Position numbers and translations under genes: made by a program. DNA of 64,000 nucleotides from Hyphomicrobiales bacterium (lineage in GTDB: Bacteria; Pseudomonadota; Alphaproteobacteria; Rhizobiales; Beijerinckiaceae), in the NCBI GenBank assembly GCA_900466745.1, contig UBNE01000008.1, positions 1 through 64,000 of the forward strand, in the 5' to 3' direction. The number at the start of each line of letters is the position of its first letter. Positions within the stretch are counted from its first letter, which is position 1. The notes under the pieces were generated by a model. It saw only the letters and a list, made by a program, of their open reading frames with translations, was not told where the DNA came from and searched no databases. Shown piece after piece: positions 4,637-44,255 of this stretch.

Positions 4637-7600
4637 ATGGCCCCCTCCGCCCTCCCGCCCTTCCGCGCGCCCTATGCCGAGGATGACGGCGCCATCGCCG
4701 GGCGCCTGCTCACCGGCGCCCGGCGCGACCCGGCGGCCAAGGCCCGGATCGACGCCCGCGCCACCGGGCTGATCGAGGCGATCCGCACCCGCAAGGTGGG
4801 GCTGGGCGGCATCGAGGAACTGCTGCGCGAATATTCGCTCTCGACCAAGGAGGGCCTGGCGCTGATGGTGCTGGCCGAGGCGCTGCTGCGCGTGCCCGAC
4901 GCCGTCACCGCCGACCGGCTGATCGAGGACAAGCTCGGCCAGGGCGACTTCGCCAACCATGAATCGAAATCGGACGCCTTCCTGGTCTCGGCCTCGGCCT
5001 GGGCGCTCGGCATCACCGCCCGGGTGATCCAGCCGGGCGAGACGCCGACGGGCATCGTCGGCAGCCTCGCCAAGCGCCTCGGCGTGCCGACCGTGCGCAC
5101 CGCGACGCGCCAGGCGATGCGGGTCATGGGCAATCATTTCGTCCTCGGCCAGACCATCGAGGAGGCGCTGAAGCGCGCCCGTACCGGCAGCGGCAAGCTC
5201 TACCGCTATTCCTTCGACATGCTCGGCGAAGGCGCCCGGACGCAAGGAGACGCCGAGCGCTATTTCGCCTCCTACACCGGCGCGATCGACGCGATCGGCC
5301 GCTCGGCCGGCAACGACCGGCTGCCCAACCGCCCGGGTATCTCGGTCAAGCTCTCGGCGCTGCATCCGCGCTACGAGGCGACGAGCCACGCGCGCGTCAT
5401 GGCCGAGCTGGTGCCGAAGGTGATCGCGCTCGCCCGCCAGGCCAAGGGCTACGACCTCAACTTCACCATCGACGCCGAGGAGGCCGACCGGCTCGAGCTC
5501 TCGCTCGACGTGATCGACGCCGTCTTCGCCGACCCCTCGCTCGCCGGCTGGGACGGTTTCGGCCTCGCCATCCAGGCCTATCAGAAGCGGGCCTCGGCGG
5601 TGATCGAGCATATCGGCCGGCTGGCGGAGCTGCATGACCGCCGCATGATGGTGCGGCTGGTCAAGGGCGCCTATTGGGACACCGAGCTGAAGCGCGCCCA
5701 GGAGCGCGGCCTGCCCGACTATCCGGTCTTCACCCGCAAGGCGATGACCGACCTCAACTACGAGGCCTGCGCCGCCCAGCTCCTGAAGCTGCGCCCCCGC
5801 ATCATCCCGCAATTCGCGACCCACAACGCGCTCACCGTCGCGACCGTGGCCGAGATGGCCGGCAACGCCGAGGGGTTCGAGTTCCAGCGCCTGCACGGCA
5901 TGGGCGAGGCGCTCTACGAGAAGCTGCTGCGCGAGAACGAGGGCTATGCCTGCCGGACCTATGCCCCGGTCGGCGGCCATCAGGACCTGCTCGCCTATCT
6001 GGTGCGCCGGCTGCTCGAGAACGGCGCCAATTCCTCCTTCGTCAGCGCCTCGGGCGACCCCGAGGTGCCGGTCTCGCAGCTTCTGCTGCCTCCCGCCGAC
6101 ATCATCGGCTCGGCCAGCGCCGCGCGCCATCGCCGCATCCCGCTGCCGGCCGACCTCTACGGCCCCTCGCGCAAGAACTCGGCCGGCACCGAGCTCGGCC
6201 ATGAGGAAAGCCTCGACGCGCTGCTGCGCGAGATCGCGGCCGCCGGCGCCTTCCCCGACGCTGCGCCGCTGATCGACGGCAAGCCGCAGCCGGGCAGCGC
6301 CCGCGAGGTCCGTTCCCCCATCGACGGCAAGCCGCTCGGCACGGTGATCGAGGCCGATGCGGCGACGGCCGGGCGGGCCATGGCCGCCGCGGCGAAGGGT
6401 TTCCGCGCCTGGAGCGAGACGCCCGCCCGCATCCGGGCCGCCGCCCTGCGCAAGGCCGCCGACCTCATGGAGGCGCGCCGCGGCCTGCTGATCGCGCTGC
6501 TGCAGGCCGAGGCCGGCAAGACCATCGACGACGCCATCTCCGAGGTGCGCGAGGCGGTCGATTTCTGCCGCTACTACGCGGCGCAGGCCGAGGCGCATTT
6601 CGCCGCGCCGCTCAGCCTTCCCGGCCCGACCGGCGAGGAGAACCGGCTGGTGCTGCGCGGCCGGGGCGCCTTCGTCTGCATCGCGCCCTGGAACTTCCCG
6701 CTCGCGATCTTCGCCGGGCAGGTCGTCGCCGCGCTCGTCGCCGGCAACAGCGTCGTCGCCAAGCCGGCGCCGCAGACGCCGCTGATCGCCGCCCTGGCCA
6801 TCCGGATCCTGCACGAGGCCGGCGTGCCGGTCACGGCCCTGCATCTGGTGCCGGGCGGAACCGAGCCCGGCGCCGCGCTGGTCGCGCATCCCGACGTGGC
6901 CGGCGTCGCCTTCACCGGCTCGACCGCGACCGCCCGCGGCATCAACCGCGCGCTCGCCGCCAAGGACGGGCCGATCGTGCCGCTGATCGCCGAGACCGGC
7001 GGTCTCAACGCCATGATCGTCGACGCCACCGCCCTGCCCGAGCAGGTCAGCGACGACGTCGTGATGTCGGCCTTCCGCTCGGCCGGGCAGCGCTGCTCGG
7101 CCCTGCGCCTGCTGGCGGTGCAGGACGACGTCGCCGACAAGATGATCGAGATGATCGAGGGGGCCACCAGGGAATTGAAGCTCGGCGATCCGCGCCTTCT
7201 CGACACCCATATCGGCCCGGTGATCGACGCAGCCGCCCGGCAGCGCCTCGACGCCCATATCGCCGCGATGCAGGCGCAGGGCCGCGTCGCCTGGGCCGGG
7301 CAGACGCCCGATCTCGGCGGCACCTATGTCGCGCCGCACATCGTCCGGCTCGACAAGGTGGGGGACCTCGCGGCGGAGCATTTCGGCCCGATCCTGCATG
7401 TCGTGCGCTGGAAGGCGGGCGAGCTCGACAAGGTGATCGACGCGATCGACGCCACCGGCTACGGGCTGACGCTCGGCGTGCATTCCCGCATCGAGGCCAC
7501 GGTCGAGCGCGTCGTCGAACGGCTCTCGACCGGGAATGTCTATGTCAACCGCAACATCATCGGCGCCGTGGTCGGCGTGCAGCCCTTCGGCGGTCATGGG

Positions 7601-31580: not shown

Positions 31581-33137
31581 ATGTCCGATCATCCGAAGAT
31601 GCCGAGTCGCCGGCAGTTCCAGCTCGGCCTCGGCGCCGCGGCGGCCGCCGTATCGCTCGCCCCCGGCCTCGCCCGGGCGCAGAGCGCCCGCAGCGCCAAC
31701 CTCGCCATGATCGGCGAGCCCCAATCGCTCGACCCGATGGCCTCGACCGCCGACCTCGTCAGCATCATCGTCCAGCACATCTACGAGTCGCTCTACACCT
31801 TCGACGCCGGTTGGAACGTCAAGCCGATGCTGGCGGCGGACATGCCCGCCATCAGCGCGGACGGCAAGCTCTACACCATCCCGCTGCGCAAGGGCGTGAA
31901 GCTGCATAACGGCCGCGAGATGGATTCCGAGGACGTCGTCGCCTCGCTGAAGCGCTGGCTCGCCATGACCGCGCGCGGCAAGGCCCTCTCGGCCGACATC
32001 GCCTCGCTCGCCGCCAAGGATGCGAGCACCGTCGAGATCGCGCTGAAGAGCGTTCAGCCCGCCCTGCTCGCCCATCTCGGCCTGCCCTCCGGCTTCGCCG
32101 GGATCATGGCCAAGGAGAGCATCGCCGACACCCTGACCCAGTTCATCGGCACCGGCCCCTACAAATTCGTCGAGCGCAAGCCGGACCAGTACGTCGTCCT
32201 GACCCGGTTCGACGACTACGCCGCCCGCAGCGAGGCGCCGAGCGGCTATGCCGGCAAGCGCGAGGCCAAGATCGCGGAGCTGCGCTTCATCCCGGTGCCG
32301 AACGCCAATACCCGGGTCGAGGGCGTGATCGCCGGGCAGTACCATTTCGCCGATCAGCTCCCGGTCGAGTCGAGCAAGAAGGTCACCGGCGCCGCGAATG
32401 CGCGGGCGGTCCTGACCATGCCCTATGGCTTCCCCTATTTCCCGACCAACACCAAGCAGGGCCCCTTCGCCGATCTAAAGGTGCGCCAGGCCTTCCAGAT
32501 GTGCCTCAACGACGAGGAGATCATGCTGGCCGGCTTCGGCGACCCGAAATTCTTCGCGCTCGCCGCCGAGCATTTCCCCAAGGGCTCGCCCTTCTATTCG
32601 GAGGCCGGCAAGGACTGCTACAACAAGGCCGATGCGGCCGGCGCGAAGAAGCTGCTCGCCCAGACCAAATACGACGGCACGCCGATCCGCATCCTCAACT
32701 CGAAGCAGTACGACTTCCACAACCGCATGGCCCTGGTGATGGCCGAGCAGATGAAGGAAGCCGGCTTCAAGGTGCAGCTCGACGTGGTCGACTGGGCGAC
32801 GCTGATCCAGCGCCGCGGCGACCCGGCGCTCTGGGACATCTACGTCACCCATTCCGCCTTCCTGCCGGAGCCGATGCTGACCCCGCCGCAGATGGGCGAC
32901 GGCGCGCCGGGCTGGTGGAAGACCCCGGCCAAGGACGCCGCGCTCGCCGCCTTCAACGGCGAGACCGACCCGGCCAAGCGCGGCGCGCTCTGGGGCGCGG
33001 TGCAGCAGGTGATCTATGACGAGGTGCCCTATGTGCGCCCCGGCAATTTCGCCGCGCTGCTCGGGACCTCGGCCCGGATGAAGGATTTCACGCCGATGCC
33101 CTGGCCGAGCTTCTGGAATGTCGACCTGACCGCGTAA
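31581..33137 (+). CDS. ABC transporter substrate-binding protein, family 5 (peptide type)
   Basis: A 518-residue periplasmic binding protein with a Tat-like leader (PSRRQFQLGLGAAAAAVSL) cleaved near ARAQS. Family 5 features: GEPQSLDPMASTADL, HIYESLYTFD, the YTIPLRKGVKLHNGREMDSEDV stretch (quoted in part) and IGTGPYKFVERK. ATG 31581 follows an AGGGGGAAA ribosome site. It heads an operon with two DppBC-like permeases. The ligand may be a peptide, but many family 5 proteins bind other solutes. No ATPase is encoded downstream. Confidence 0.91.
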   Translation: MSDHPKMPSRRQFQLGLGAAAAAVSLAPGLARAQSARSANLAMIGEPQSLDPMASTADLVSIIVQHIYESLYTFDAGWNVKPMLAADMPAISADGKLYTIPLRKGVKLHNGREMDSEDVVASLKRWLAMTARGKALSADIASLAAKDASTVEIALKSVQPALLAHLGLPSGFAGIMAKESIADTLTQFIGTGPYKFVERKPDQYVVLTRFDDYAARSEAPSGYAGKREAKIAELRFIPVPNANTRVEGVIAGQYHFADQLPVESSKKVTGAANARAVLTMPYGFPYFPTNTKQGPFADLKVRQAFQMCLNDEEIMLAGFGDPKFFALAAEHFPKGSPFYSEAGKDCYNKADAAGAKKLLAQTKYDGTPIRILNSKQYDFHNRMALVMAEQMKEAGFKVQLDVVDWATLIQRRGDPALWDIYVTHSAFLPEPMLTPPQMGDGAPGWWKTPAKDAALAAFNGETDPAKRGALWGAVQQVIYDEVPYVRPGNFAALLGTSARMKDFTPMPWPSFWNVDLTA

Positions 33138-33154
33138 GGCGGCGATAGCGCCGC

Positions 33155-33188
33155 GCGCCGCCCCTGCCCGCATGGGAAGGGGCGGCGC
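33155..33188 (+). other. Intercistronic stem-loop after the binding-protein gene
   Basis: A perfect 11-bp inverted repeat, GCGCCGCCCCT (33155-33165) and AGGGGCGGCGC (33178-33188), with a 12-base loop, followed by TTGAGTTTT. It lies between the binding-protein stop and the first permease. Such structures stabilise the upstream mRNA and reduce downstream transcription, so binding protein would be made in excess. Confidence 0.65.
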
Positions 33189-33249
33189 TTGAGTTTTGCA
33201 GGGGCGGCGGCGCTGGCCGTATGCGCGCCCCGGATCCGGTGAAGAGACG

Positions 33250-34191
33250 ATGTGGTTCAGCCTCGCGCGGCGCCTCGGCAGCCTGCTGATCGTGATGTTC
33301 CTGGTCGCGACCATGGTGTTCTTCCTGACCCGGCTGGCGCCGGGCGACCCCGCCGCCATCATGCTCGGCGACCAGGCGACGCCGGCCGATGTCGAGCGGC
33401 TGCGCGCCGTCTACGGGCTCGATAAGCCGGTCCTCGTCCAGTACGTGCTGTGGCTGAAGGAGGTCGTGCAGGGCAATCTCGGCCAGTCGATCTTCCTGCA
33501 GCGCCCGGTGACGACGGCTTTGGCCGAGCGCGTCGAGCCGACCTTCTTCCTCACCCTGTTTTCGATCGTCATCGCCACGCTGATCGGCGTGCCGGCCGGC
33601 ATCGCCTCGGCGGTCTGGCGCGGGCGCGCGGTCGACCAGGTGGTGAGCGCCCTCGCCATGCTGGCGGCGAACATCCCGAGCTTCTGGCTCGGCCTGATCT
33701 TCATCCAGTTCTTCGCCGTGCGGCTCGGCCTGTTCCCGGTCGCCGGCTATGGCGACCCCGGCGCCTCGCTGGCCGAGCGGCTGGCGCATCTCGTCCTGCC
33801 CGCCGCCGTGCTCGGCATCGTCAACTCGGCGCTGATCACCCGCTTCACCCGCGCCAGCATGCTCGACGTGCTCGGCGACGACTATGTCCGCACCGCCCGC
33901 TCGAAGGGCGTGCCGGAGACGGGCATCGTCCTGCGCCACGCCTTCCGCAACGCGCTGGTGCCGATCGTCACCGTGATCGGCCTGACCATCGCCCTGCTGG
34001 TCGGCGGCGCCATCGTCACCGAGACGGTGTTCGGCCTGCCCGGCATCGGCAATCTCGTCGTCTCGGCCGTGCTGCGCCGCGACTATCCGGTGATCCAGGG
34101 CGCGCTCATCGCGGTCGCGGCGCTCTATGTGCTGATCAACCTCGCGGTCGACCTGATCTACACCCTCGTCGACCCGCGCGTGAGGGCGTGA
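33250..34191 (+). CDS. ABC transporter permease, DppB-like
   Basis: A 313-residue inner-membrane permease: N-terminal helix and FFLTRLAPGDPAA, the QGNLGQSIFLQRPV periplasmic segment, the EAA motif (RTARSKGVPETGIVLRHAFRN, seen in part) and the C-terminal NLAVDLIYTLVDPRVRA. It starts at ATG 33250, after GAAGAGACG. The next gene begins 2 bp after its stop. It belongs with the binding protein at 31581. Confidence 0.93.
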   Translation: MWFSLARRLGSLLIVMFLVATMVFFLTRLAPGDPAAIMLGDQATPADVERLRAVYGLDKPVLVQYVLWLKEVVQGNLGQSIFLQRPVTTALAERVEPTFFLTLFSIVIATLIGVPAGIASAVWRGRAVDQVVSALAMLAANIPSFWLGLIFIQFFAVRLGLFPVAGYGDPGASLAERLAHLVLPAAVLGIVNSALITRFTRASMLDVLGDDYVRTARSKGVPETGIVLRHAFRNALVPIVTVIGLTIALLVGGAIVTETVFGLPGIGNLVVSAVLRRDYPVIQGALIAVAALYVLINLAVDLIYTLVDPRVRA

Positions 34192-34193
34192 CG

Positions 34194-35039
34194 ATGGCCT
34201 CCCCGACCGTCGCCTTCCTGAACCGGCTGTTCCGGCGCAAGCTCGTCCTCGCCGCCGCCTGCGTGCTGCTCGCCTTCGTCCTCGCGGCGCTGTTCGCACC
34301 CTGGGTCGCGCCCTACGATCCCGGCGCGCTGCGCGTCATCCGCCGGCTGAAGCCGCCGAGCGAGCTGAACTGGCTTGGCACCGACGAGTTCGGCCGGGAC
34401 GTGCTCTCGCGCATCATCTACGGCGCGCGCGCCTCGCTCGGCATCGGCGCGGCGGTGGTCGCGATCTCGATCGCCGCCGGCTCCGCCATCGGCCTCACCG
34501 CCGGCTATTTCCGGCGCCTCGACCCGCCGATCATGCGCATGGTCGACGCCGTCATGGCGCTGCCCGACATCCTGCTCGCGATCTTCCTGGTCGCTATCCT
34601 GGGGTCGTCGATCTTCAACGTCGTCTTCGCGCTCGCCATCGTCTACACGCCGCGCGTCGTGCGGGTGGTGCGCGCCTCGGCGCTGGTGGTGCGCGAGCAG
34701 CAATTCGTCGAGGCGGCCCGCGCCATCGGCGCCTCGACGCCGCGCATCCTGTTCCGGCACATCCTGATGAACGTCACCTCGCCGGTGCTGGTGCAGGCGA
34801 CCTTCATCTTCGCCTATGCGGTGCTGGCCGAGGCGGGCCTGTCCTTCCTCGGCGCCGGCGTGCCGCCGGAGGTGCCGACCTGGGGCGAGATGATCGCCTC
34901 GGCCCAGCAATATGCCGACCAGGCCTTCTGGGTCGTGCTCTTCCCGGGTCTGGCGATCGTGCTCGCGGCGCTGTCGCTCCAGGTGGTCGGCGACGGCCTG
35001 CGCGACCAGCTCGACCCCAGGCTGCGCAAGGCGCTGTAG
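34194..35039 (+). CDS. ABC transporter permease, DppC-like
   Basis: A 281-residue DppC-type permease with the N-terminal anchor, ELNWLGTDEFGRDVLSRI, the EAA motif (EAARAIGASTPRILFRHILMN, seen in part) and the C-terminal VVGDGLRDQLDPRLRK. ATG 34194 is preferred; a GTG at 34188 would overlap the previous stop. It is the last gene of the operon: the next gene is on the other strand, so the two ATPase subunits normally encoded after DppC are missing, as in the cluster at 20589-24035. Confidence 0.93.
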   Translation: MASPTVAFLNRLFRRKLVLAAACVLLAFVLAALFAPWVAPYDPGALRVIRRLKPPSELNWLGTDEFGRDVLSRIIYGARASLGIGAAVVAISIAAGSAIGLTAGYFRRLDPPIMRMVDAVMALPDILLAIFLVAILGSSIFNVVFALAIVYTPRVVRVVRASALVVREQQFVEAARAIGASTPRILFRHILMNVTSPVLVQATFIFAYAVLAEAGLSFLGAGVPPEVPTWGEMIASAQQYADQAFWVVLFPGLAIVLAALSLQVVGDGLRDQLDPRLRKAL

Positions 35040-35072: not shown

Positions 35073-35840
35073 TCAGGCCATCACCAGCCCGCCATCGACA
35101 TGCAGCACCTGCCCGGTGACGAAGCCGCTCCCTTCGCCGGCGAGGAAGAGCACCGGGCCGGCGACGTCGGCCGGCGTCGCGATGCGGCGCAGCGGCGTCT
35201 GCGCGATCAGCGTCTCGCGCACCTCCTCGGGCGTCGCGGCGCTCGCATCGGTCGGATAGACCAGCCCCGGCGCGACGCAGTTCACCCGGATGCCGAGCGG
35301 GCCGAGTTCGGCCGCGAGGTTGCGGCTGAACCCGATCAGCGCCGCCTTGGCCGTGGCGTAGTCGTGATAGGCGATGCTCGGGCGCGCGACGAGGTCGCTG
35401 GCGAGATTGACGATGCTGGCGCCGCTGCGGCGCCGAAGCAGCGGCAGCATCGCCTGGCAGACCGTGTAGGTGGCCTTCACCGCGCCGTCGAACTGCCGGC
35501 CATAGGCCTCCCAGGGCGTCTCCCAGAAGCGGGCGCGCCTGTCCGGGTCGAAGCGGTAGGGCGCGAAGGCGTTGTTGACGACGGCGTCGAGCCGGCCGGC
35601 CTCCTCCGCGATGCGCTGCGCCATCGCCGCGACCGCCTCGGCCGAGGTGACGTCGGCCGCCACCGTCAGCGCCTCGCCGCCGAGCGTCCGGCATTCGGCG
35701 GCGACGGCCTCGGCGGCCGCCTCGTTCGTCCGGTAGTTGACGACGACGATCCCGCCCTCGGCGGCGAAGGCCCTGGCGATCGCCGCGCCGATGCCGCGGC
35801 TGGCGCCGGTGACGAGGATGACGCGGCCCTGGAATCTCAT
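35073..35840 (-). CDS. Short-chain dehydrogenase/reductase, last gene of the TPP-riboswitch operon
   Basis: A 255-residue classical SDR of the FabG-like type. The cofactor motif is TGASRGIGAAIA; NNAFA replaces the usual NNAG; the catalytic residues are Ser in NLASDL and Tyr/Lys in YHDYATAK; the C-terminus HVDGGLVMA is typical. ATG 35840 overlaps the binding-protein stop by 4 bp, so it is co-translated with the importer. In this operon an SDR could reduce the aldehyde made by the LuxC-like enzyme to an alcohol, or oxidise it; direction and substrate are inference. Confidence 0.88.
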   Translation of the reverse strand: MRFQGRVILVTGASRGIGAAIARAFAAEGGIVVVNYRTNEAAAEAVAAECRTLGGEALTVAADVTSAEAVAAMAQRIAEEAGRLDAVVNNAFAPYRFDPDRRARFWETPWEAYGRQFDGAVKATYTVCQAMLPLLRRRSGASIVNLASDLVARPSIAYHDYATAKAALIGFSRNLAAELGPLGIRVNCVAPGLVYPTDASAATPEEVRETLIAQTPLRRIATPADVAGPVLFLAGEGSGFVTGQVLHVDGGLVMA

Positions 35841-36892
35841 GGCGCGCCGTCCCTGGCCGGGACGAGGTCGCTCCTGACCACCGCCTTCATCGCGAGCGGG
35901 CGCGCGATCAGGCCGAGGCTGCGGAAGGTGTCGGCGCCCTTCTGCATCGCCTCGATGTCGAAATGGCCGAGGCCCTCGCGCTCCGTGACCGGCGAGACGC
36001 TGGACAGGTTGCGCAGCTTGATGATCTCGAGATTGACGGCCTCGTCGCGCCCGTTGATGGCGCGGGAAACGGCGATCCGGGCCGCCTCCTCGGGCCTGGC
36101 GATCATCCAGGCGGCGGAATCGCGATAGCCGGCGAGGAAGCGTTGCAGCAGCGGCCGGTTCCGCTCGTAATAGCTTTCCTTCACCACGAAGATGTCGCTC
36201 GACAGGTTGAGCTGGTCGCGGACCTCGATGACGTTGGCCTCGCCCAGACCCTTGGCGCGGGCGACGAGCAGGCCGGTATCGGTCGCGGCGGTGGCGTCGA
36301 CCTGGCCCTGCATCAGCGGCGCGAAGTTGAGCAGCCCCGTCGGCTGGATGGTGACGTCCTTCTCGCTCAGACCGACCTGGTGCAGCAGCACGAGCAGGTT
36401 CTGATAGGTGCCGCTCGACAGGCTGTAGACGCCGATGCGCTTGCCCCTGAGATCGGCGGCGGTGCGGATGCCGCTGCCTTTGAGCGCGACGACGTTGAAG
36501 ACGTTCTGCGGATAGATGTCGTAGATCGCGACCAGCTTCTCGCCCTTGTCGAGCGCGAGATAGAACGAGGCCGGGTCGGTGAAGGCGACATCGGCCTGGC
36601 CGGCGAGCAGCGTCTGGATCGCCGCGCCGCCGCCGGTGCCGGGCACGTAGTCGAGCGCGATGCCCCTCGCCTTGAAGAAGCCCTTGTCGGGTTCGGCCAG
36701 GAGGTTGGTGATCTCGCTGATCGGCTGGCTCCAGCCCGCGACCGTGACCTTGTCGAGCGGCTGGGCCCGGACCGAAATCCAGCCGGAAAGCAGCAGGGCG
36801 ACGCATGCCGTCAGGCTCGCCGTCATCCCGGACACGGCGAAGCGCAGACCCGGAAGGAGGAGCCTCGGAAGGCGAGCGAGGAAAGATGACAT
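35837..36892 (-). CDS. ABC transporter substrate-binding protein, NMT1/ThiY-like, in the TPP-riboswitch operon
   Basis: A 351-residue secreted protein of the NMT1/SsuA class: the GFFKARGIALDYVPGTGGGAAIQ segment (seen in part), GQADVAFTDPASF, DLRGKRIGVYSLSSGTY and a late PEEAARIAVS. The family includes ThiY, which binds thiamine pyrimidine precursors, and location under a TPP riboswitch favours such a ligand (inference). ATG 36892 has AAAGG 8 bases upstream and lies 4 bp after the permease stop. The n-region (PGLRFAVSGMTAS) is encoded by a copy of the GTCATCCCGG repeat; an internal ATG at 36826 would give a shorter signal peptide but has no ribosome site. Confidence 0.88.
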   Translation of the reverse strand: MSSFLARLPRLLLPGLRFAVSGMTASLTACVALLLSGWISVRAQPLDKVTVAGWSQPISEITNLLAEPDKGFFKARGIALDYVPGTGGGAAIQTLLAGQADVAFTDPASFYLALDKGEKLVAIYDIYPQNVFNVVALKGSGIRTAADLRGKRIGVYSLSSGTYQNLLVLLHQVGLSEKDVTIQPTGLLNFAPLMQGQVDATAATDTGLLVARAKGLGEANVIEVRDQLNLSSDIFVVKESYYERNRPLLQRFLAGYRDSAAWMIARPEEAARIAVSRAINGRDEAVNLEIIKLRNLSSVSPVTEREGLGHFDIEAMQKGADTFRSLGLIARPLAMKAVVRSDLVPARDGAP

Positions 36893-36896
36893 GGGG

Positions 36897-37646
36897 TCAG
36901 CCTTTCGAGAAGCGGTGCAGGACGCGGCGCTCGACGAGGCGAACGGCCTCGTAGAGCAGCATGCCGAGCGCGGTGATGACGATGAAGAGCGCGAAGATCA
37001 GGCTCGAATCCATCACGCTCTGGGCGGCGATGATCGAGGCGCCGAGCCCGCTGCGCCCGCCGATGAACTCGCCGACCACCGCGCCGACCAGCGCGAGCAC
37101 GACCGCGACGCGCAGGCCCGCCATGATGACGGGCAGCGCCGCCGGCAGCTTCAGGCGCAGCAGGGTCTGGAGCCGGCTCGCGCCGAGCATGCGGAAGAGG
37201 TCGCGCCGGGCGGCGTCGACCTCGCCGAGCCCCGTCAGCGTGGTCTCCATCAGCGGGAAGAAGCAGATCAGCGCGGTGATGACGATCGTCGGCGTCATGC
37301 CGAAGCCGAACCAGATGATGAAGAGCGGGCCCAGCGCGAGCTTGGGCACGAGCTGGCTCGCCAGCACATAGGGTCGCAGCAGCCGGCTGAGCGCCGGCAC
37401 CTCCGCCAGCAGGATGCCGGTGCCGAGCCCGACCAGCGCGCCGATGCCGAGGCCGAGCCCCATCTCCGCCGCGGTGACCGCGAGATGCGGCCAGAGCCTC
37501 CCGCTGGCGATCTCGCCGCCCAGCGTGGCGAGCACGGCGGAAGGCGGCGGCAGGACCAGCGGCGACAGGCCGCCGAAGCGGCACCAGCCCTCCCAGCCGG
37601 CGAGCAGGATCAGGAGCAGCAGCAGCGAGGGCAGGCGCGCCGTCAT
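36897..37646 (-). CDS. ABC transporter permease, SsuC/TauC/ThiX type
   Basis: A 249-residue inner-membrane permease with about six hydrophobic helices. It has the family's cytoplasmic EAA loop (FRMLGASRLQTLLRLKLPAALPVIM, seen in part), the preceding PLFIIWFGFG and the following GEFIGGRSGLG. It overlaps the ATPase gene by 4 bp and is followed 4 bp later by the binding protein, forming a complete importer. The TPP riboswitch upstream of the operon points to a thiamine-related solute. Confidence 0.92.
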   Translation of the reverse strand: MTARLPSLLLLLILLAGWEGWCRFGGLSPLVLPPPSAVLATLGGEIASGRLWPHLAVTAAEMGLGLGIGALVGLGTGILLAEVPALSRLLRPYVLASQLVPKLALGPLFIIWFGFGMTPTIVITALICFFPLMETTLTGLGEVDAARRDLFRMLGASRLQTLLRLKLPAALPVIMAGLRVAVVLALVGAVVGEFIGGRSGLGASIIAAQSVMDSSLIFALFIVITALGMLLYEAVRLVERRVLHRFSKG

Positions 37647-38452
37647 GCCGCCGGCCTCCGGCTGGCGGGGCCGGCCTCGCCGTCCATCGCCTCGCGCAGA
37701 GCGCGGCAGGCGGCCGCGAAGACCGGCGTGTAGCGGAGCGCTGGAGGGCGCGGGCGCGGCAAGGCGATCCGGCGGGCCTGGGTCAGCCGGCCTCCGGCCA
37801 TCACCGCGACGCGGTCGCCGAGATAGACCGCCTCGCCGATATCGTGGGTGACGAAGAGGGCGGTGGTGCCGTGCAAAGCGCAGAGCCGCAGAAGATCGTC
37901 CTGCAGCTCCTCGCGCGTCAGGGCGTCGAGCGCGGCGAAGGGCTCGTCGAGCAGGAGCAGGTCCGGCGCGCCGATCAGCGCGCGCGCCACGGCGACGCGG
38001 CTGCGCTGGCCGCCGGACAGCTCGCGGGGCCGGCGCTCCGCAAGATCCGCGAGGCCGACGCGGGCGAGAAGGTCGCGCGCCGCCGCCCGCTCGGCCGCGG
38101 TCGGGCGCCGCTTCAGCGAGACCGGCAGCAGCACGTTGTCGAGCGCGCTCAGCCAGTCGAGCAGCGTCGGCGCCTGGAAGACGAAGCCGGCGCGGGGGCT
38201 GGGGCCGCGCAGCGCCTCGCCGGCGATGCGGATCGCGCCCTCGCTCGGCAGCAGCAGGCCGGCGGCGAGCTTGAGCAGCGTGGTCTTGCCGCAGCCGCTG
38301 CGGCCGAGCAGGCAGTGGATCTCGCCGCGCGGGATCGCCCAGTCGACGCCGTCGACGACGGCCGGGCCGCCCGCCTCGTAGCGGTAGCCCGCCCGCTCGA
38401 TCGCGACGAAGCCGGGCGCGGACGGGTCGGTCGGCGGCGGATCAGTCGGCAT
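37643..38452 (-). CDS. ABC transporter ATPase, SsuB/TauB/ThiZ type
   Basis: A 269-residue ATP-binding subunit: Walker A GRSGCGKTT, Q-loop FVFQAPTLLDWLSALDNV, signature LSGGQRSR, Walker B LLLLDEPFAALD and the His switch FVTHD. The N-terminal tail is Pro-rich. It overlaps the LuxC-like gene by 11 bp and the permease gene by 4 bp, so all are on one message. It energises import by the permease and binding protein that follow. Confidence 0.93.
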   Translation of the reverse strand: MPTDPPPTDPSAPGFVAIERAGYRYEAGGPAVVDGVDWAIPRGEIHCLLGRSGCGKTTLLKLAAGLLLPSEGAIRIAGEALRGPSPRAGFVFQAPTLLDWLSALDNVLLPVSLKRRPTAAERAAARDLLARVGLADLAERRPRELSGGQRSRVAVARALIGAPDLLLLDEPFAALDALTREELQDDLLRLCALHGTTALFVTHDIGEAVYLGDRVAVMAGGRLTQARRIALPRPRPPALRYTPVFAAACRALREAMDGEAGPASRRPAA

Positions 38453-39890
38453 AGGAAGCGAACCCTTCCGCGGCGGCTTCCGCGCCCGGCTCGATCTCGG
38501 TCAGGGTGACGAGGTCGAGCAGGCTGAAGCGCCCGTCATGGTGCCAGCCGGGCTCCGGCGCGGTCATGCGGCCGAGCGGGGCGATGCGGCTGACGCCGAC
38601 CGCGGCGAGCCGTTCCGCCAGCCGCAGCAGCCTCTCCGGGGCGGCGGCGACGCCGGCCGTCTGCAGGAAGGCGCGATAGGGGCCGACCAGGGCCGGCACC
38701 GCGGCGAGATCGTCGACCGCGACCAGCTTGAGCGTGCGGTTCAGGCCGGTCGGGCTCAGGGCCTCGGCGGCCTCGACATGGACGACGCTCCAGGGATCGG
38801 CCGGCTCGCCGAACAGCTCCGCGGCGCCTTCCAGCCCGCGCAGCTCCTGCGCGCCGCGCCAGCCCGCGACGGCCGCCGCCTCGCCCGGCGAGAGCGCGCG
38901 GCGCGGATGGCGATGGGCGAGCGCCGCGAGCTCCCGCGCCAGATAGCCGGCGAACTCCGCCGGCGCGACCCGCCCGCCGCGCTCGACGAAGAGCATCTGC
39001 GGCGAATAGCAGCCCTGCTGCTCGTAGCGCGCCACGTCATGAGCGGCGAGCCGGGCCAGCGCCGGGGCCTTGCGACTGTCGAGCGCCTCGCGCGCGACGA
39101 CGCCGAAGCCGATCCTGTGGCCATGCGGCAGGAAGCGCGTCGTCACCGGCAGCTTCGCGCGCAGCGCCGCGAGCGTCTCGTTGCCGCCATAGGCCATCAC
39201 CGTGTCGGCCGCCTGCAGGAAGGGCGCCTCGGCCGCGGCATTCCCGCCCTTCCACCAGACGACCGCGAGGCATTCGCCGATCTCGGGGTCGATCCCGGCG
39301 AGGAGCCCGGCGAACCAGCCGGCCGTCAGCGGCTCGGCCGAGGCGAGCTTGCCGATGCTGCCCGCCTTGACCAGCAGCCCGCAGATCAGGCTCCAGAGCG
39401 ACAGCGCCGGCACGTTGCCGGCCCAGATGTGCAGCAGTAGATTCGGCCCCTGCGCGCGCAGCAGGCCGCCCTTGGCCGCCGGCTGGAAGCCGTCGAGCAT
39501 GGCGGGATTGGCGAAGTCCTCGGCGAGGAAGCGCAGGAGCTGCGGCCGGCGGAAAGTCCTGAGATAGCCGGTCAGGCCGAGCCGGACGCTCTCGCGGTCA
39601 TAGCCGGTGACGATCGGCAGGAGGTGCTCGGCCTTGCGGCGCAGCGGATGATCCCGGTCGAGCAGCCGCGCGACCGCGGCGTCGACCGCATCGACGATCC
39701 GGGCGACCGGCATTTGCTTCAGCCGCCCGCGGGCATTTTCGCGGACCTGCTCGCACAGCGCGGCGGCCTGCGCCGCGTCGAGTTCCGGCAGCGCCAGCAC
39801 GACGCGCTCGCCCCAGGCGCCATGCGCGACCTCGCGCCAGCGCACCGCCTCGCGGCTCAAACCCGGCAGATGGCCCGCATGCGCGATCAC
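38442..39890 (-). CDS. LuxC-like acyl-CoA/acyl-protein reductase
   Basis: A 482-residue protein of the LuxC family (NADPH-dependent reduction of an acyl thioester to an aldehyde). The catalytic cysteine is in YEQQGCYSPQ (about Cys294), matching the QQ-C-SPQ signature. The HIWAGNVPALS segment (about 154-164) and VMAYGGNETL resemble the cofactor-binding parts of this aldehyde-dehydrogenase-like fold. GTG 39890 is chosen: it lies 4 bp after the LuxE-like stop with GGAG 8 bases before it. There is no luciferase (luxAB), so light production is not expected. It would receive an acyl group from the LuxE-like partner; substrate unknown. Confidence 0.87.
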   Translation of the reverse strand: MIAHAGHLPGLSREAVRWREVAHGAWGERVVLALPELDAAQAAALCEQVRENARGRLKQMPVARIVDAVDAAVARLLDRDHPLRRKAEHLLPIVTGYDRESVRLGLTGYLRTFRRPQLLRFLAEDFANPAMLDGFQPAAKGGLLRAQGPNLLLHIWAGNVPALSLWSLICGLLVKAGSIGKLASAEPLTAGWFAGLLAGIDPEIGECLAVVWWKGGNAAAEAPFLQAADTVMAYGGNETLAALRAKLPVTTRFLPHGHRIGFGVVAREALDSRKAPALARLAAHDVARYEQQGCYSPQMLFVERGGRVAPAEFAGYLARELAALAHRHPRRALSPGEAAAVAGWRGAQELRGLEGAAELFGEPADPWSVVHVEAAEALSPTGLNRTLKLVAVDDLAAVPALVGPYRAFLQTAGVAAAPERLLRLAERLAAVGVSRIAPLGRMTAPEPGWHHDGRFSLLDLVTLTEIEPGAEAAAEGFASYAD

Positions 39891-39894
39891 GGCC

Positions 39895-40971
39895 TCAGCT
39901 CCGCGCCGCCGCCAGGAACTCCGCCACGGCGACGGAGCAGCCCTTCGAGGCCTCGCCGTCGACGCGGCCGAGCAGCAGGAAGCCGCCGGGCACGATCTCG
40001 CCGGCATCCTCGGTCAGGATCGCCGAGACGCAGTTGAAATGGGCGAGATCGTGATGGACGAGCACGCCGCGCTCGCCGTCGCGCAGATCGGCGCCGGTCA
40101 GCGGATCGACGACACGGCTGCGCACCCAGTGCGGGCCGGACTTGACCGAGGGGCAGACGGCGTTGCCGTCGTCGTAGAACTGGCTGCTCAGCTCGGTCAT
40201 GCCGTACATGTTGATGCAGGAGGCGCGCGGCACGCCGAAGGCTGCCGAGAGGGCGTCGTAGAAGGCGTCCGGCGCCAGCTCGCGCGACTGGCCCTTGAAG
40301 CCGCCGGTGTCGAGGATCAGGCTGCCCTCGGGCAGGGCGAAGCGGCGGCCCTGCGCCGCCAGCGCGTCGAGCACCGGCACAAAGGAGTAGCTGGCGCCGA
40401 GCAGGGCATAGGGCTCGCCACCGGCCTCGGCCTGAGCGAGCGCCGCCAGCAGGCCGTCGAGATCGAGGCCGTCCGCGCCGATGAAGCCCTGCGAATCCGG
40501 CGTGCCGCATGCGCGCCGGGCGAGCGACAGGTAATGCGCGAGCGAAGAATTGGGCAGCTCCCTGTCGTCGGGGAAGAGGATGCCCATGCGGATGCGCGCG
40601 CGGCCGCGCATGAAGCGCGCCCGGAAATTGTCGAGCATCGAGCGCTGCCAGACGGCGAGCGTCGGGTGGTAGCTGCGGCCGCGCACGCCCTGGGTGGTGC
40701 CGCTCGTCATGAAGACGTGGCTCGCCGCCTCCGGCGGGCAGCAGCTCAGCGTCAGGCCCTTGAAGGCGGTGATCGGCACGGCCGGAATGTCGCGCCAGCG
40801 CCTCACCGCGAGCGGGGTGCGGCCGCGCTGCAGGGCGAAGCGCCTGTAGGGCTCGTTGTTGCGGAACTGATAGGCGAAGACCTGGAGCGCCATCGCCTCG
40901 AACTCGGCTTCCGACGCGTCGGGACGTGCGATGAACGCCAGCAGCGCCTCGATGATCTCGGCTTGCGTCAC
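39895..40971 (-). CDS. LuxE-like acyl-protein synthetase, first gene of the TPP-riboswitch operon
   Basis: A 358-residue adenylate-forming enzyme of the LuxE family, which activates a carboxylate with ATP and carries it as a thioester. The ATP motif is FMTSGTTQGVRGR (about residues 88-98), followed by YHP; a second motif is NMYGMTELSSQFYDD. The near-C-terminal SKGCS holds the conserved acyl-carrying cysteine (about Cys345). GTG 40971 is preceded by GGAG at 9 bases. Upstream is a TPP riboswitch, so thiamine pyrophosphate should repress it. In bacterial luminescence LuxE works with LuxC, and here the two genes are adjacent and coupled. Confidence 0.87.
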   Translation of the reverse strand: MTQAEIIEALLAFIARPDASEAEFEAMALQVFAYQFRNNEPYRRFALQRGRTPLAVRRWRDIPAVPITAFKGLTLSCCPPEAASHVFMTSGTTQGVRGRSYHPTLAVWQRSMLDNFRARFMRGRARIRMGILFPDDRELPNSSLAHYLSLARRACGTPDSQGFIGADGLDLDGLLAALAQAEAGGEPYALLGASYSFVPVLDALAAQGRRFALPEGSLILDTGGFKGQSRELAPDAFYDALSAAFGVPRASCINMYGMTELSSQFYDDGNAVCPSVKSGPHWVRSRVVDPLTGADLRDGERGVLVHHDLAHFNCVSAILTEDAGEIVPGGFLLLGRVDGEASKGCSVAVAEFLAAARS

Positions 40972-40989
40972 TGTGGCCCACTCCGTTCG

Positions 40990-41018
40990 GACGCTCCCTC
41001 GGCCTGCCGAAGGGCGTC
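40990..41018 (-). promoter_or_regulatory. Stem-loop between the TPP aptamer and the LuxE-like start
   Basis: On the minus strand GACGC-CCTTCGG-CAGG-CCGAGGG-A-GCGTC forms a 12-bp stem with one bulge and a four-base loop. There is no T-run after it; the ribosome site follows about 9 bases later. It may be part of the riboswitch expression platform, acting on translation rather than termination (inference). Confidence 0.45.
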
Positions 41019-41076
41019 GGTCGCGACTGGACCATATGCGCAGATGGAATCGGGGCTTGAGCGCCGCCTGTCCCGC

Positions 41077-41181
41077 ATCCCTACGCCGGTATGATCCGGA
41101 TCAGGTTCGGAGGGTCACCGCGTTGCCGGAAAAAGCCCGGCCGGCGGAATCTCAGCCTCCTAGCGAGGCCCCCCTGGGAAC
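41077..41181 (-). ncRNA. TPP riboswitch (THI element)
   Basis: On the minus strand all conserved parts are in order. P1 starts with GTTCCC. The P2 strands GGGGGGCC and GGAGGC lead to CTGAGA (41150-41155). A variable P3 stem is GCCGG / CCGGC. GTGACCCTCCGAACCTGATC (20 bases) leads into CGGATCATACCGGCGTAGGGA, split here across positions 41082-41101. The final GTAGGGAT closes P1. It lies about 105 bases before the LuxE-like start and should reduce expression when thiamine pyrophosphate is abundant. Confidence 0.95.
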
Positions 41182-41187
41182 GCGGCT

Positions 41188-41216
41188 AGATGACGAGCGG
41201 CAGGGTGGGCTGTCAA
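41188..41216 (-). promoter_or_regulatory. Promoter candidate for the TPP-riboswitch operon
   Basis: A perfect -35 TTGACA (41216-41211) is followed after 17 bases by TCATCT (41193-41188), a weak -10. Transcription would start near 41181, exactly at the 5' strand of the riboswitch P1 stem. The rest of the spacer up to 41389 is GC-rich and shows no gene. Confidence 0.5.
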
Positions 41217-41389: not shown

Positions 41390-42139
41390 ATGAGCGAAAG
41401 CGTAGTGAGCGAGACCGTCGCCGCGGGCGTCGTCCAGATCACCATGAACCGGCCGGACCGGAGGAACGCGCTCGACCGCGCGAGCTATGCCGGGCTGATC
41501 CAGGCCATCGCCGCGGCGGAAGCGGACGATGCCGCCCGCGCCGTCCTGCTGACCGGCGCCGGCGGCTGCTTCACCAGCGGCAACGACATCAAGGACTTCG
41601 CCGCGGCCGCCGCCGCGGGCGAAGGGCCGCGCGCCGCGATCGACTTCCTCGGCGCGATCTCGACCGCGAAGAAACCCATCGTCGCCGCCGTCGAGGGCTT
41701 CGCCGTCGGCATCGGCACGACGATGCTACTGCATTGCGACCTCGCCTTCGCGGGCGCCACGGCGAGCTTCCGCCTGCCCTTCGTCACGCTCGGCCTCTCG
41801 CCCGAGGGCGGCTCCAGCTATCTGCTGCCCCTCGTCGCCGGCAGCAAGAAGGCGGCCGAGCTGCTGATGCTGGGCGAGGTCTTCGACGCCGCGACGGCGG
41901 CGGAAGCCGGGCTGGTCAACGCCGTGGTGCCGGAAGGCACGGCGCTGGAGCACGGGCTCGCCAGGGCGAAGGCGCTGGCGGCCCTGCCGTCGCAATCCGT
42001 CGCCCTGACCAAGATGCTGCTGAAGCGCGGTAGCGCCGCGGCGGTGGCCGAGACCATCGCCGTGGAGGCCGACCATTTCGGCCGCCGCCTGCGCTCGCCC
42101 GAGGCCATGGCCGCCTTTGCGGCCTTCCTCAGGAAATAG
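41390..42139 (+). CDS. Enoyl-CoA hydratase/isomerase family protein
   Basis: A 249-residue crotonase-fold protein. The oxyanion-hole segments are [14 protein letters not shown] and the helix-start region [20 protein letters not shown] (20 residues). The residue pattern [19 protein letters not shown] resembles the peroxisomal-type delta3,delta2-enoyl-CoA isomerase subgroup, with the Glu in SPEGG as the likely single acid catalyst. That makes isomerase at least as likely as hydratase. It converges with tctA (14 bp gap) and is divergent from the riboswitch operon. Specific pathway unknown. Confidence 0.88.
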
Positions 42140-42153
42140 GCTGCCGCGCCGCC

Positions 42154-43671
42154 TCAGGGCGGCGCGGTTTCTCCTGCCGGAACCGGCTGGCCGTGCCGGC
42201 CGAAGGGCAGCATGCGCCACAGCATCAGGCCCCAGACGATCAGCGTGCAGACCCCGAGCACCCCCGCGATCGGCCGCTCGAAGAAGAACAGGAAAGAGCC
42301 GTCCGACTTGATCATCGAGGTCATGAAGTTCTGCTCCAGCATCTCGCCGAGGACGAGGCCGAGGATCAGCGGCGCGATCGGGATGCCATGCTCCTCGAGC
42401 ACCCAGCCGAACACGCCCATCACCACCATCAGCACGACGCCGTAGATCGAGTTGGTCATGGCGAAGGAGCCGACCATGCAGAAGATCAGGATGACCGGCA
42501 GCAGGATGTTGCGCGGCACCCGCAGGATCTGCTTGGCGGATTTGATCGCCGCCCAGCCGAGCGGGAACATCACGATATTGGCGAGGATGAAGATGATGAA
42601 GACGGCGTAGATCAGCTCCGGCGTCTGCAGGAACACGCTCGGCCCCGGATTCATGCCCTTCATGTAGAGCACGCCGATGACGATCGCCGTGATCGAATCG
42701 CCGGGGATGCCAAAGACCAGCGCCGGAATCCAGGCGCCGCCGAGCGCCGAATTATTGGCCGATGTCGAGTCGACGATGCCTTCGAGATGGCCGGTCCCGA
42801 ACTTCTCCGGCTCCTTGGAGAGCTTCTTCGAGACGGCATAGGAAACCCAGGCCGCGATATCGGCGCCGGCTCCGGGCAGAGCCCCGATGACCGTGCCGAG
42901 GATCGAGCCGCGGAAGAAGTTCTTCCAGTACTTCCGCCAGACCGCGCCGATGCCGGTCATCAGCTTGCCGACCTGCTGCTGCACCATGGTCGAGCCCTGG
43001 TCGAGCGAGACCGAGCCGCGCAGCAGTTCGGAGACCGCGAACATGCCGATCAGCGTCGGGATGAAGTTGATCCCCGAGAGCAGGTCGACATTGCCGAAGG
43101 TGAAGCGGGGCTGCCCCGCCGCCGGGTCGATGCCGACGCAGCCGATGGCGAGGCCGATGAACAGCGAGAGCAGCCCCTTGACCGGATCGCCCGTGCCGAT
43201 GAACACGGCGCAGGTCAGGCCGAGGCAGGCGAGCCAGAAATACTCGAAGGACGAGAAGTTGATCGCCACCTCGGCCAGCATGGGCGCGGCCAGGATGAGG
43301 ACGGCGACGCCGAAGATGCCGCCCAGAACCGAGAAGACCAGGTTGACGCCCATGCACAGGTCGAGCTGGCCCTTCTTGGTCATCTCGTAGCTCTCGTCGG
43401 CATAGGCCGCCGAGGCGGGCGTTCCGGGCATGCGCAGCATCGCCGCCGGAATGTCGCCGGCGAAGATCGCCATGGCCGTGGCGGTGACGATGGCGCCGAG
43501 CGCCGGCACGGGCGGCATGAAGAAGGTGACGGGCACCAGCAGCGCCGTCGCCATGGTCGCGGTCAGCCCCGGCATCGCGCCGACGAACATGCCGAACACG
43601 GCGGAAGCCAGGATCACCCCGATGACCTGGAGGTCGAAGACGAGCCCGAAGGCGGTTGCGATGGCTTGCAT
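42154..43671 (-). CDS. tctA: Tripartite tricarboxylate transporter, large membrane subunit TctA
   Basis: A 505-residue inner-membrane protein with about 12 hydrophobic segments. TctA hallmarks are the N-terminal FVGAMPGLTATMATALLVP, MLRMPGTPASAAYADESYEM (20 residues), a repeat-like GALPGAGADIAAWVSYAVSK and FGIPGDSITAIVIGVLYMKG. It carries solute across the membrane, driven by an ion gradient, with TctB and the binding protein TctC. Gene order tctC-tctB-tctA is standard. Citrate is the classical ligand but many TTT systems take other carboxylates. Confidence 0.95.
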   Translation of the reverse strand: MQAIATAFGLVFDLQVIGVILASAVFGMFVGAMPGLTATMATALLVPVTFFMPPVPALGAIVTATAMAIFAGDIPAAMLRMPGTPASAAYADESYEMTKKGQLDLCMGVNLVFSVLGGIFGVAVLILAAPMLAEVAINFSSFEYFWLACLGLTCAVFIGTGDPVKGLLSLFIGLAIGCVGIDPAAGQPRFTFGNVDLLSGINFIPTLIGMFAVSELLRGSVSLDQGSTMVQQQVGKLMTGIGAVWRKYWKNFFRGSILGTVIGALPGAGADIAAWVSYAVSKKLSKEPEKFGTGHLEGIVDSTSANNSALGGAWIPALVFGIPGDSITAIVIGVLYMKGMNPGPSVFLQTPELIYAVFIIFILANIVMFPLGWAAIKSAKQILRVPRNILLPVILIFCMVGSFAMTNSIYGVVLMVVMGVFGWVLEEHGIPIAPLILGLVLGEMLEQNFMTSMIKSDGSFLFFFERPIAGVLGVCTLIVWGLMLWRMLPFGRHGQPVPAGETAPP

Positions 43672-43681
43672 GGCCGCCTCC

Positions 43682-44152
43682 TCAGAGCACGCTGTCGAGA
43701 ATGCCGCGCGGCAGGGGCACGAGCATCATGCTGCCGAAGAACCAGTGGACGAGCAGCGTCATGCCCACCGCGACGACGAGGGCCGTCAGCGGTCTCACCC
43801 CGAACCAGAGCAGCAGCACGATCTGGACCAGGAAGGCGCTGGGGATGAAGCCGAGCCGGTCGGAAGCCAGCACGTAGAACAGCATCGCCGCGAGGGTCAG
43901 GACGAAGGACAGGACCTTGCGCGGCTCGCGCGCCCAGTCCGCCAGCACGAGCCAGGGCGCCGCGACGGCGGCCCGCCGCTCGCGCAGGATCAGCACCAGC
44001 GCGCAGAAGATTATCCCGCCGCCCAGGATGCGGGGAAACAGGCTCGGCCCATAGGCCTGTCCCGGGAACGACGGAAAGGAGAATGTCATGGCGATCATGG
44101 TCGCGGCCAGCGCAATGAACGCGAGCCCGACGACGGTATCGTTGAAACGCAT
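43682..44152 (-). CDS. tctB: Tripartite tricarboxylate transporter, small membrane subunit TctB
   Basis: About 156 residues with four predicted membrane helices, as usual for TctB: FNDTVVGLAFIALAATMIAM, SLFPRILGGGIIFCALVLI, then two C-terminal helices (SFVLTLAAMLFYVLASD and ALVVAVGMTLLVHWFFG). I use ATG 44152 (MRFNDTVVG), which has AAGG 8 bases upstream and matches the typical N-terminus. An in-frame ATG at 44188 also has a plausible ribosome site. It lies 10 bp before tctA and 68 bp after the binding-protein gene. Confidence 0.88.
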   Translation of the reverse strand: MRFNDTVVGLAFIALAATMIAMTFSFPSFPGQAYGPSLFPRILGGGIIFCALVLILRERRAAVAAPWLVLADWAREPRKVLSFVLTLAAMLFYVLASDRLGFIPSAFLVQIVLLLWFGVRPLTALVVAVGMTLLVHWFFGSMMLVPLPRGILDSVL

Positions 44153-44255
44153 CGATTCGACCTTGTCAGGAGTGACGGGCCCCGCCATCGCGCGGCCCTC
44201 GCCGAAAGGCGGCGCGCCCTGCCCGGAGCCGGCGCGCGCCGCCGTCCCTGTCGCG

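Follow-up and report, generated by a model that had tools for sequence, protein, structure and literature searches.

A six-gene operon on the minus strand of a 64,000-nt window (the whole stretch of DNA analysed: contig UBNE01000008.1, positions 1 to 64,000, from a Hyphomicrobiales bacterium whose genome is here called G000) follows a thiamine pyrophosphate (TPP) riboswitch and encodes LuxE-like and LuxC-like enzymes, an ATP-binding cassette (ABC) importer and a short-chain dehydrogenase/reductase (SDR). To judge from its sequence and those of its relatives, the operon probably effects the TPP-controlled salvage of the thiamine pyrimidine in the form of a carboxylic acid, most likely 4-amino-2-methylpyrimidine-5-carboxylate or a close acid. 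Both 2-methyl-4-amino-5-pyrimidinecarboxylic acid and 4-methylthiazole-5-acetic acid are metabolites of thiamine in animals.

The gene set, the TPP element, the conserved residues and the genome profiles are observed; every reaction proposed here, its substrate and the sense in which TPP acts are inferred. As the aptamer suggests, low TPP would free the riboswitch and allow expression of the operon, and the acid would then be taken up by the ABC importer or, elsewhere, by an NCS2 symporter. If the enzymes act as their families do, LuxE would use ATP to form an acyl-AMP and then carry the acyl group on its C-terminal cysteine, from which it would move to the cysteine of LuxC and be reduced with NADPH to the aldehyde, and the SDR would convert this with NAD(P)H to 4-amino-5-hydroxymethyl-2-methylpyrimidine (HMP). 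ThiD would phosphorylate the HMP and ThiE would couple the pyrimidine to the thiazole. Where ThiC is present, the route would supplement synthesis; in carriers lacking it, the route may be the main source of pyrimidine.

Conservation of the luxE-luxC-SDR module and its TPP element

Searching named genomes with the LuxE protein yielded 340 confirmed relatives, the best 80 of which were taken as a set of loci. These span the Alpha-, Beta- and Gammaproteobacteria and the Bacillota, with carriers in Bosea, Methylobacterium, Azospirillum, Azorhizobium, Pantoea, Erwinia, Enterobacter, Curvibacter and its relatives, Geobacillus, Desulforamulus and others. luxC comes after luxE at every one of the 80 loci and an SDR gene follows at 78, the remaining two (L070 and L083) ending at a contig edge; luxE, luxC and the SDR gene are the constant core of the module. 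A complete ABC importer is present at 64 loci, none lies between luxC and the SDR gene at 14, and at two it is cut off. With a covariance model derived from 12 leaders, of which 11 belong to these loci and match by construction, a TPP element is detected upstream at 79 of the 80. As the element precedes the same gene set at almost all of these related loci, a chance association of riboswitch and operon was rejected, and the expectation of the earlier note on this DNA, that riboswitch, luxE-luxC pair, SDR and importer genes would recur together in other genomes, stands on these counts.

The TPP matches differ in strength and position. At L073 and L075 the element lies about 0.7-1 kb upstream, the match at L021 (29.2 bits) is cut at the contig end, and nine matches in Bacillota or Burkholderiales are weak (28.6-37.4 bits with the 12-leader model). 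Rfam at its own threshold confirms the element at L057, L066, L067, L082 and L137, and does not confirm it at L021, L058, L069, L070, L073, L075, L078, L081, L083, L135 and L136. The 12-leader model also finds the element in 28 of 31 further stretches; setting aside five that repeat loci of the 80 and one of two identical lactobacillus modules gives 22 of 25, and counting the two plasmids bearing that module (L151 and L152) apart gives 23 of 26. One of the three misses is L139, whose contig ends within luxE.

Near the source of the window luxE is patchy, being found in 4 of 8 genomes listed as the same genus, in 7 of 169 drawn from the family and, of 199 genomes sampled evenly across the order, in G000 alone. 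LuxE is carried by 11 of 398 Bacilli genomes drawn, and among the stretches examined from ten of these 11, the TPP riboswitch exceeds the Rfam threshold in eight; the match at L172 reaches 42.2 bits, and that of L169, a 3.5-kb contig, is made by the 12-leader model alone.

At some single loci the module has thiamine genes as neighbours. At L171 a single strand carries a TPP riboswitch and, behind it, tenI-thiO-thiS-thiG-thiF-luxE-luxC-ABC-SDR, in which tenI and thiS were identified by eye, so that thiazole synthesis is joined to the luxE module. In the alphaproteobacterium represented by L074 and L134, thiC, with a TPP riboswitch to itself, is directly upstream of the module, and at L176 a divergent gene under its own TPP riboswitch belongs to PF09819, which we take to be the YkoE family, a component of an HMP importer. 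The Niallia locus L153 has two TPP riboswitches and then ThiW, NCS2, LuxE, LuxC and SDR genes; the tandem riboswitches, of 85 and 72.9 bits, lie at 4697-4993 before this one operon.

In the window itself the aptamer scores 64.0 bits against an Rfam gathering score of 54.3 bits for RF00059, agreeing with the textbook TPP aptamer described in the earlier note, and is the sole Rfam match at gathering in the 64,000 nt. Most bases of the luxE ribosome-binding site (GGAG, 40984) and start codon (GTG, 40971) lie in paired positions of a leader hairpin, and the fold of 40945-41065 has an energy of -54.2 kcal/mol (z -2.62, 3 of 200 shuffles being equally low). This suggests that the hairpin is a candidate platform controlling luxE translation; since it pairs most of these bases, and a scan of the site found no terminator-like sequence or intrinsic terminator around the riboswitch, control would be exerted at translation. 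The fitting promoter that had been described was not upheld: TTGACA is present at 41216-41211, yet a scan near the riboswitch gave 0 sigma-70-type promoter pairs.

The residues expected of the three enzyme families are retained. The C-terminal Cys345 of LuxE is invariant in all 35 aligned rows, one real LuxE among them, and Cys294 of LuxC is kept at 110 of 110 loci (105 distinct), one of them a real LuxC; we take these cysteines, from the lux literature, to be the acyl carriers. Tyr161 and Lys165 of the SDR are kept at all 106 covered loci (101 distinct). Because these residues are conserved, activation of an acid, reduction of the thioester and reduction of the aldehyde would be chemically possible. 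At E <= 0.01, the only solved structures matched by sequence are LuxE and LuxC of PDB 7xc6, and relatives carry database names such as 'long-chain fatty acid--CoA ligase', 'acyl-CoA synthetase' and 'acyl-CoA reductase'.

These family memberships could also fit a module that makes some other aldehyde or alcohol, for instance a fatty or plant-derived one, with TPP control being indirect: fatty-acid reductases are the enzymes after which these Pfam families are defined, and the names of the SDR and the binding protein are generic. However, identity to a real lux pair, taken from a reporter plasmid, is 23% for LuxE and 26% for LuxC, and the proteins of the operon fall far short of the NCBIfam equivalog cut-offs for long-chain fatty acids (58.2 bits against 550, and 67.8 against 750). 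TPP matches are moreover kept across Alpha-, Beta- and Gammaproteobacteria, Bacillota and plasmids, and the neighbours at single loci are thiC, thiOSGF, thiM, thiW and a YkoE-type gene, and this alternative is very unlikely, the least probable of those considered here.

Genome profiles and the choice between pyrimidine and thiazole

Thiamine genes were profiled in 41 luxE-bearing genomes, comprising G000, G302 and the genomes of 39 of the 80 loci. Of the three TPP riboswitches in G000 (73 contigs, 4.49 Mb), two lead thiC-thiM and thiO-thiS-thiG-thiE; the window operon is therefore the third member of a TPP regulon in a bacterium also able to make HMP. ThiD is over its cut-off in all 41 carriers, and ThiG is full-length in 40, the exception (G396) having a part match of 25.5 bits only. 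ThiC is found in 36, in one of these in pieces and in one partially. ThiM exceeds its cut-off in 12, while a further 8 of Bosea type, G000 included, show split matches that stay under the cut-off; it is missing from 21, with no match in 17 and matches of 20-23 bits only in four. As a separate observation, the genome behind L148 (4106-5933) and L058, the latter being the single locus of the 80 that lacks a TPP match, has ThiC only as several short frames, the result of either assembly error or decay. In G386 ThiC looks broken.

In the alphaproteobacterial order of genome G397, 27 genomes were searched, for which completeness figures are not given. luxE is present in 18 of these and ThiC in one; the two occur together only in G395, luxE occurs without ThiC in 17, and nine genomes have neither. 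ThiD is over cut-off in 13 of 14 further carriers from this order. In G397 itself one contig of 4,149,033 bases accounts for nearly all of the genome. It has two TPP matches, one ahead of thiO-thiG-thiE (51.2 bits, short of the 54.3-bit threshold) and one ahead of luxE-luxC-SDR (69.6 bits). Thiazole synthesis and ThiD without ThiC imply a cell short of the pyrimidine only, while the absence of ThiM implies that thiazole alcohol is barred from the known pathway. The combined profile, which is correlative, points to the pyrimidine half of thiamine as that being salvaged.

The same profiles bear on the possibility that 4-methylthiazole-5-acetic acid, an example offered in the earlier note, is reduced by LuxE, LuxC and the SDR to hydroxyethylthiazole and then phosphorylated by ThiM. 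Some form of ThiM is present in 20 of the 41 carriers, including G000 with its thiC-thiM, ThiM follows the SDR gene at L172 (NF006830, 357 bits, over cut-off), and the Niallia operon L153 is led, ahead of its NCS2 gene, by ThiW (TIGR02359, 175.2 bits), a thiamine-precursor S component of the kind usually assigned to thiazole. The ThiM that this route would need is nevertheless missing from the other 21 carriers, ThiG is present in 40, and 17 of the 18 carriers in the order of G397 lack ThiC, a gap that thiazole salvage would not fill. The nucleobase-family importers of L151, L153, L167 and L168 and the position of the L171 module behind a thiazole-synthesis operon also speak against this substrate, which is disfavoured: it is unlikely, although the most probable of the alternatives.

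Importers and their likely substrate

The importer varies between loci, being an NMT1-type ABC system, a symporter of the NCS2 nucleobase family, or lacking, and is not obligatory to the module. The core idea of the earlier note, import of a carboxylated thiamine fragment followed by its reduction to the alcohol by LuxE, LuxC and SDR under TPP control, fits these results, while two of its three example substrates are disfavoured. An NCS2 symporter stands in the importer's place at L151/L152, L153, L167 and L168, in each case with a TPP riboswitch above threshold. Among the ten stretches from the Bacilli draw, NCS2 genes are found at L167 and L168, ABC importers at L170, L171, L172, L173 and L175, and none at L174 and L176. 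A LuxE tree was made from 35 rows by a quick method, with 13 of its 32 inner branches left open. Loci without an importer are scattered over it, and the enteric rows fall inside the alphaproteobacterial ones with a support of 96, suggesting lateral transfer.

Plasmids of Lactiplantibacillus plantarum and Levilactobacillus brevis carry the order TPP riboswitch, NCS2, LuxE, LuxC, SDR with the same protein accessions, and represent a vitamin module moving among food bacteria. The identical module occupies 1390-6321 of L151 and 2947-7878 of L152, and one of the two plasmids is typed as mobilizable.

The 14 of 80 loci without an importer between luxC and the SDR gene, among them L079 of the ThiC-less G397, would suit a role for the module as a step in a ThiC-independent de novo route to HMP, in which the acid is made in the cell instead of being imported. 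This is set against the ABC importer present at 64 of the 80 loci, the search having covered linked importers only, and such a route seems very unlikely, ranking in probability above only the making of some other aldehyde.

The structure of the binding protein was predicted from 19 rows with a mean predicted local distance difference test (pLDDT) score of 87.2. A PDB search with its sequence gave distant matches only, and the fold search was more informative: the structure nearest to the predicted model is ThiY of Bacillus halodurans bound to N-formyl-4-amino-5-aminomethyl-2-methylpyrimidine (FAMP) (3ix1, Foldseek 1.8e-21), which is also first by VIA-align (Z 31.9, root-mean-square deviation (rmsd) 2.9, 294 aligned), with Thi5 third (Z 28.2, rmsd 3.0, 291 aligned). 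This likeness to ThiY supports, without proving, a pyrimidine ligand, the whole family having the same fold. A pyrimidine carboxylate, among the substrates named in the earlier note, is thus favoured by the luxE carriers lacking ThiC, the NCS2 importer and the ThiY-like fold.

Another of those substrates, thiamine acetic acid, would be imported and reduced to thiamine, repairing the whole vitamin. The second-best structure for the binding-protein model, the thiamin-bound 4nmy, would suit this, whereas a nucleobase-family symporter would be an odd importer for thiamine acetic acid, and repair of this kind offers no particular reason for carriers that lack ThiC and bear ThiG. Thiamine acetic acid would also call for a thiamine kinase or pyrophosphokinase. 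The thiamine pyrophosphokinase domain TPK_catalytic (PF04263) is found in three of the 41 carriers, all Bacillota, and was unmatched in the remaining 38, G000 among them, in a search that did not cover other thiamine kinases. Whole-vitamin repair is accordingly disfavoured and appears very unlikely, if less so than a de novo route.

Several observations weigh against salvage of a pyrimidine acid as the function of the operon. The 12-leader model gave no TPP match at L058, its one miss among the 80 loci, nor at L135 and L136 among the further stretches. The luxE route is not needed in the 36 of 41 carriers with ThiC, and the nine genomes of the order of G397 without either gene imply that loss of ThiC does not require the module; the LuxE-negative genomes G276 and G202 likewise lack ThiC. 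Absence of PF04263 does not exclude the use of thiamine, as the control E. coli, which uses thiamine via another kinase, has no PF04263 match either. With the binding protein, the substrate is deduced from the fold and not from pocket residues, 4nmy comes close behind ThiY (Z 30.8, rmsd 3.0, 291 aligned), the sulfonate binder SsuA also aligns well (Z 27.9, rmsd 2.6, 279 aligned), and Foldseek, differing in order from VIA-align, places SsuA ahead of Thi5. The NCS2 proteins score best to the xanthine-permease subfamily, under its cut-off, and the four NCS2 loci form one clade of the LuxE tree (support 99), implying a single importer replacement. Finally, ThiM at L172 and ThiW at L153 would suit a thiazole acid too.

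A strict link between loss of ThiC and presence of the module was sought and not found, given the nine genomes with neither and G276 and G202. G276, a 3.8-Mb genome of the window's genus scored as 100% complete, has no match to ThiC, ThiG or ThiM and no ThiD over cut-off, as if the whole of thiamine synthesis had been lost.

The features of the operon are collected in the table below. All six proteins named in the earlier note were matched by Pfam, on the one strand. In the order from luxE to the SDR gene, the junctions are a gap of 4 nt, an overlap of 11 nt, an overlap of 4 nt, a gap of 4 nt and an overlap of 4 nt, so that the limit of 4 bp given previously holds for four junctions and fails at that of luxC and the ATPase gene, if the latter starts at 38452. 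The statement that no luciferase is present holds for the six genes of the operon, a genome-wide search for luxAB not having been made.

Features of the TPP-controlled operon in the window, with the evidence for each
Feature	Position	Strand	Evidence
TPP riboswitch aptamer (RF00059)	41058..41185	-	cmscan 64.0 bits, full-length 1-105
Leader hairpin, candidate expression platform	40964..41042	-	fold and base pairing
luxE-like acyl-protein synthetase, 358 aa, GTG start	39895..40971	-	PF04443, 46.6 bits
luxC-like acyl-thioester reductase, 482 aa, GTG start	38442..39890	-	PF05893, 285 bits
ABC importer ATPase	37643..38452	-	PF00005, 110 bits
ABC importer permease	36897..37646	-	PF00528, 102.3 bits
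NMT1/ThiY-type periplasmic binding protein	35837..36892	-	PF09084, 154.3 bits
SDR (PF13561/PF00106), proposed aldehyde-to-alcohol reductase	35073..35840	-	PF13561, 198.4 bits

Around the operon, inspection by eye shows genes for a binding protein and two permeases of a peptide/nickel-type ABC transporter at 31581-35039 on the plus strand, convergent with the luxE operon. An enoyl-CoA hydratase-like gene at 41390-42139, also on the plus strand, diverges from the operon; beyond it, at 42154-44188 on the minus strand, lie tricarboxylate transporter genes of TctA/TctB type; both were assigned by eye with no family search. In the alphaproteobacterial loci L079, L124, L127 and L133 the module appears by eye to lie between a cluster of hydrolase and CoA-binding protein genes and methionine synthase genes, and at L124 and L127 a small secreted-looking protein is encoded right after the SDR.

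Significance and relation to known systems

If this interpretation is correct, the operon represents an unrecognised bacterial way to obtain vitamin B1 in which a bioluminescence-type reductase pair acts in vitamin metabolism, and a function would be provided for a large group of proteins annotated as fatty-acid or acyl-CoA enzymes. There would be one more B1 vitamer to measure, and auxotrophy calls resting on the absence of thiC would change. A wider proposal, which we put forward tentatively and consider doubtful on balance, is that the environment contains an unrecognised B1 vitamer in the form of a pyrimidine carboxylic acid, that a portable LuxE-LuxC-SDR module, found also on lactobacillus plasmids, replaces ThiC as the source of pyrimidine, and that entire lineages at present scored as HMP auxotrophs are users or makers of the acid.

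Nothing tying LuxE or LuxC to thiamine or TPP riboswitches was found in the titles and abstract beginnings returned by searches of an open-access library, in agreement with the earlier note, which knew of no thiamine salvage by such proteins. The THI-regulon survey of Rodionov in 2002 reportedly lists ThiXYZ together with an oxidoreductase, oarX, for which a literature search found nothing. The portion of PMC3219970 considered here describes a luxCDE reporter and an unrelated thiC riboswitch. The pyrimidine vitamers named in the passages considered of PMC10470507, PMC10881298 (a recent survey of B1) and PMC11452348 are HMP, 4-amino-5-aminomethyl-2-methylpyrimidine (AmMP) and FAMP, and those passages name no pyrimidine acid.

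Several systems resemble the module in part. Salvage of hydroxyethylthiazole by ThiM is likewise a TPP-controlled reuse of one half of thiamine, although ThiM is absent from 21 of the 41 luxE carriers. The ThiXYZ/ThiY-YlmB-TenA system for salvage of FAMP and AmMP has a TPP riboswitch and is similar in its NMT1-family ABC importer, with ThiY being the nearest structure, and in its end product, which here would be HMP; by contrast, neither an amidohydrolase nor TenA is among the six genes, and the acid would be reduced, with no hydrolysis. The ThiV, CytX and YkoEDC systems for HMP uptake also represent TPP-controlled supply of pyrimidine to bacteria without ThiC, as described for ThiV of SAR11 in the part of PMC11452348 considered, but they provide uptake only, whereas the module has three enzymes that would regenerate the alcohol. 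The thiXYZ genes of the THI regulon in metagenomes encode a TPP-controlled ABC transporter of the nitrate/sulfonate/bicarbonate family (PMC2211319); section 8 of that paper does not name LuxE or LuxC, and it leaves twelve TPP-linked genes unassigned as having no similar genes in databases.

The closest likeness among the enzymes is to the LuxC-LuxE complex of bioluminescence (PDB 7xc6), with which the module shares two Pfam families, adjacent genes and the invariant cysteines. It differs from that system in having luxE before luxC, in lacking luxD, luxA and luxB from the operon, in the addition of an SDR, in control by TPP, and in an identity of just 23-26%. The module is hence a new assembly of known enzyme families, with thiamine salvage, itself a known purpose, as its proposed role.

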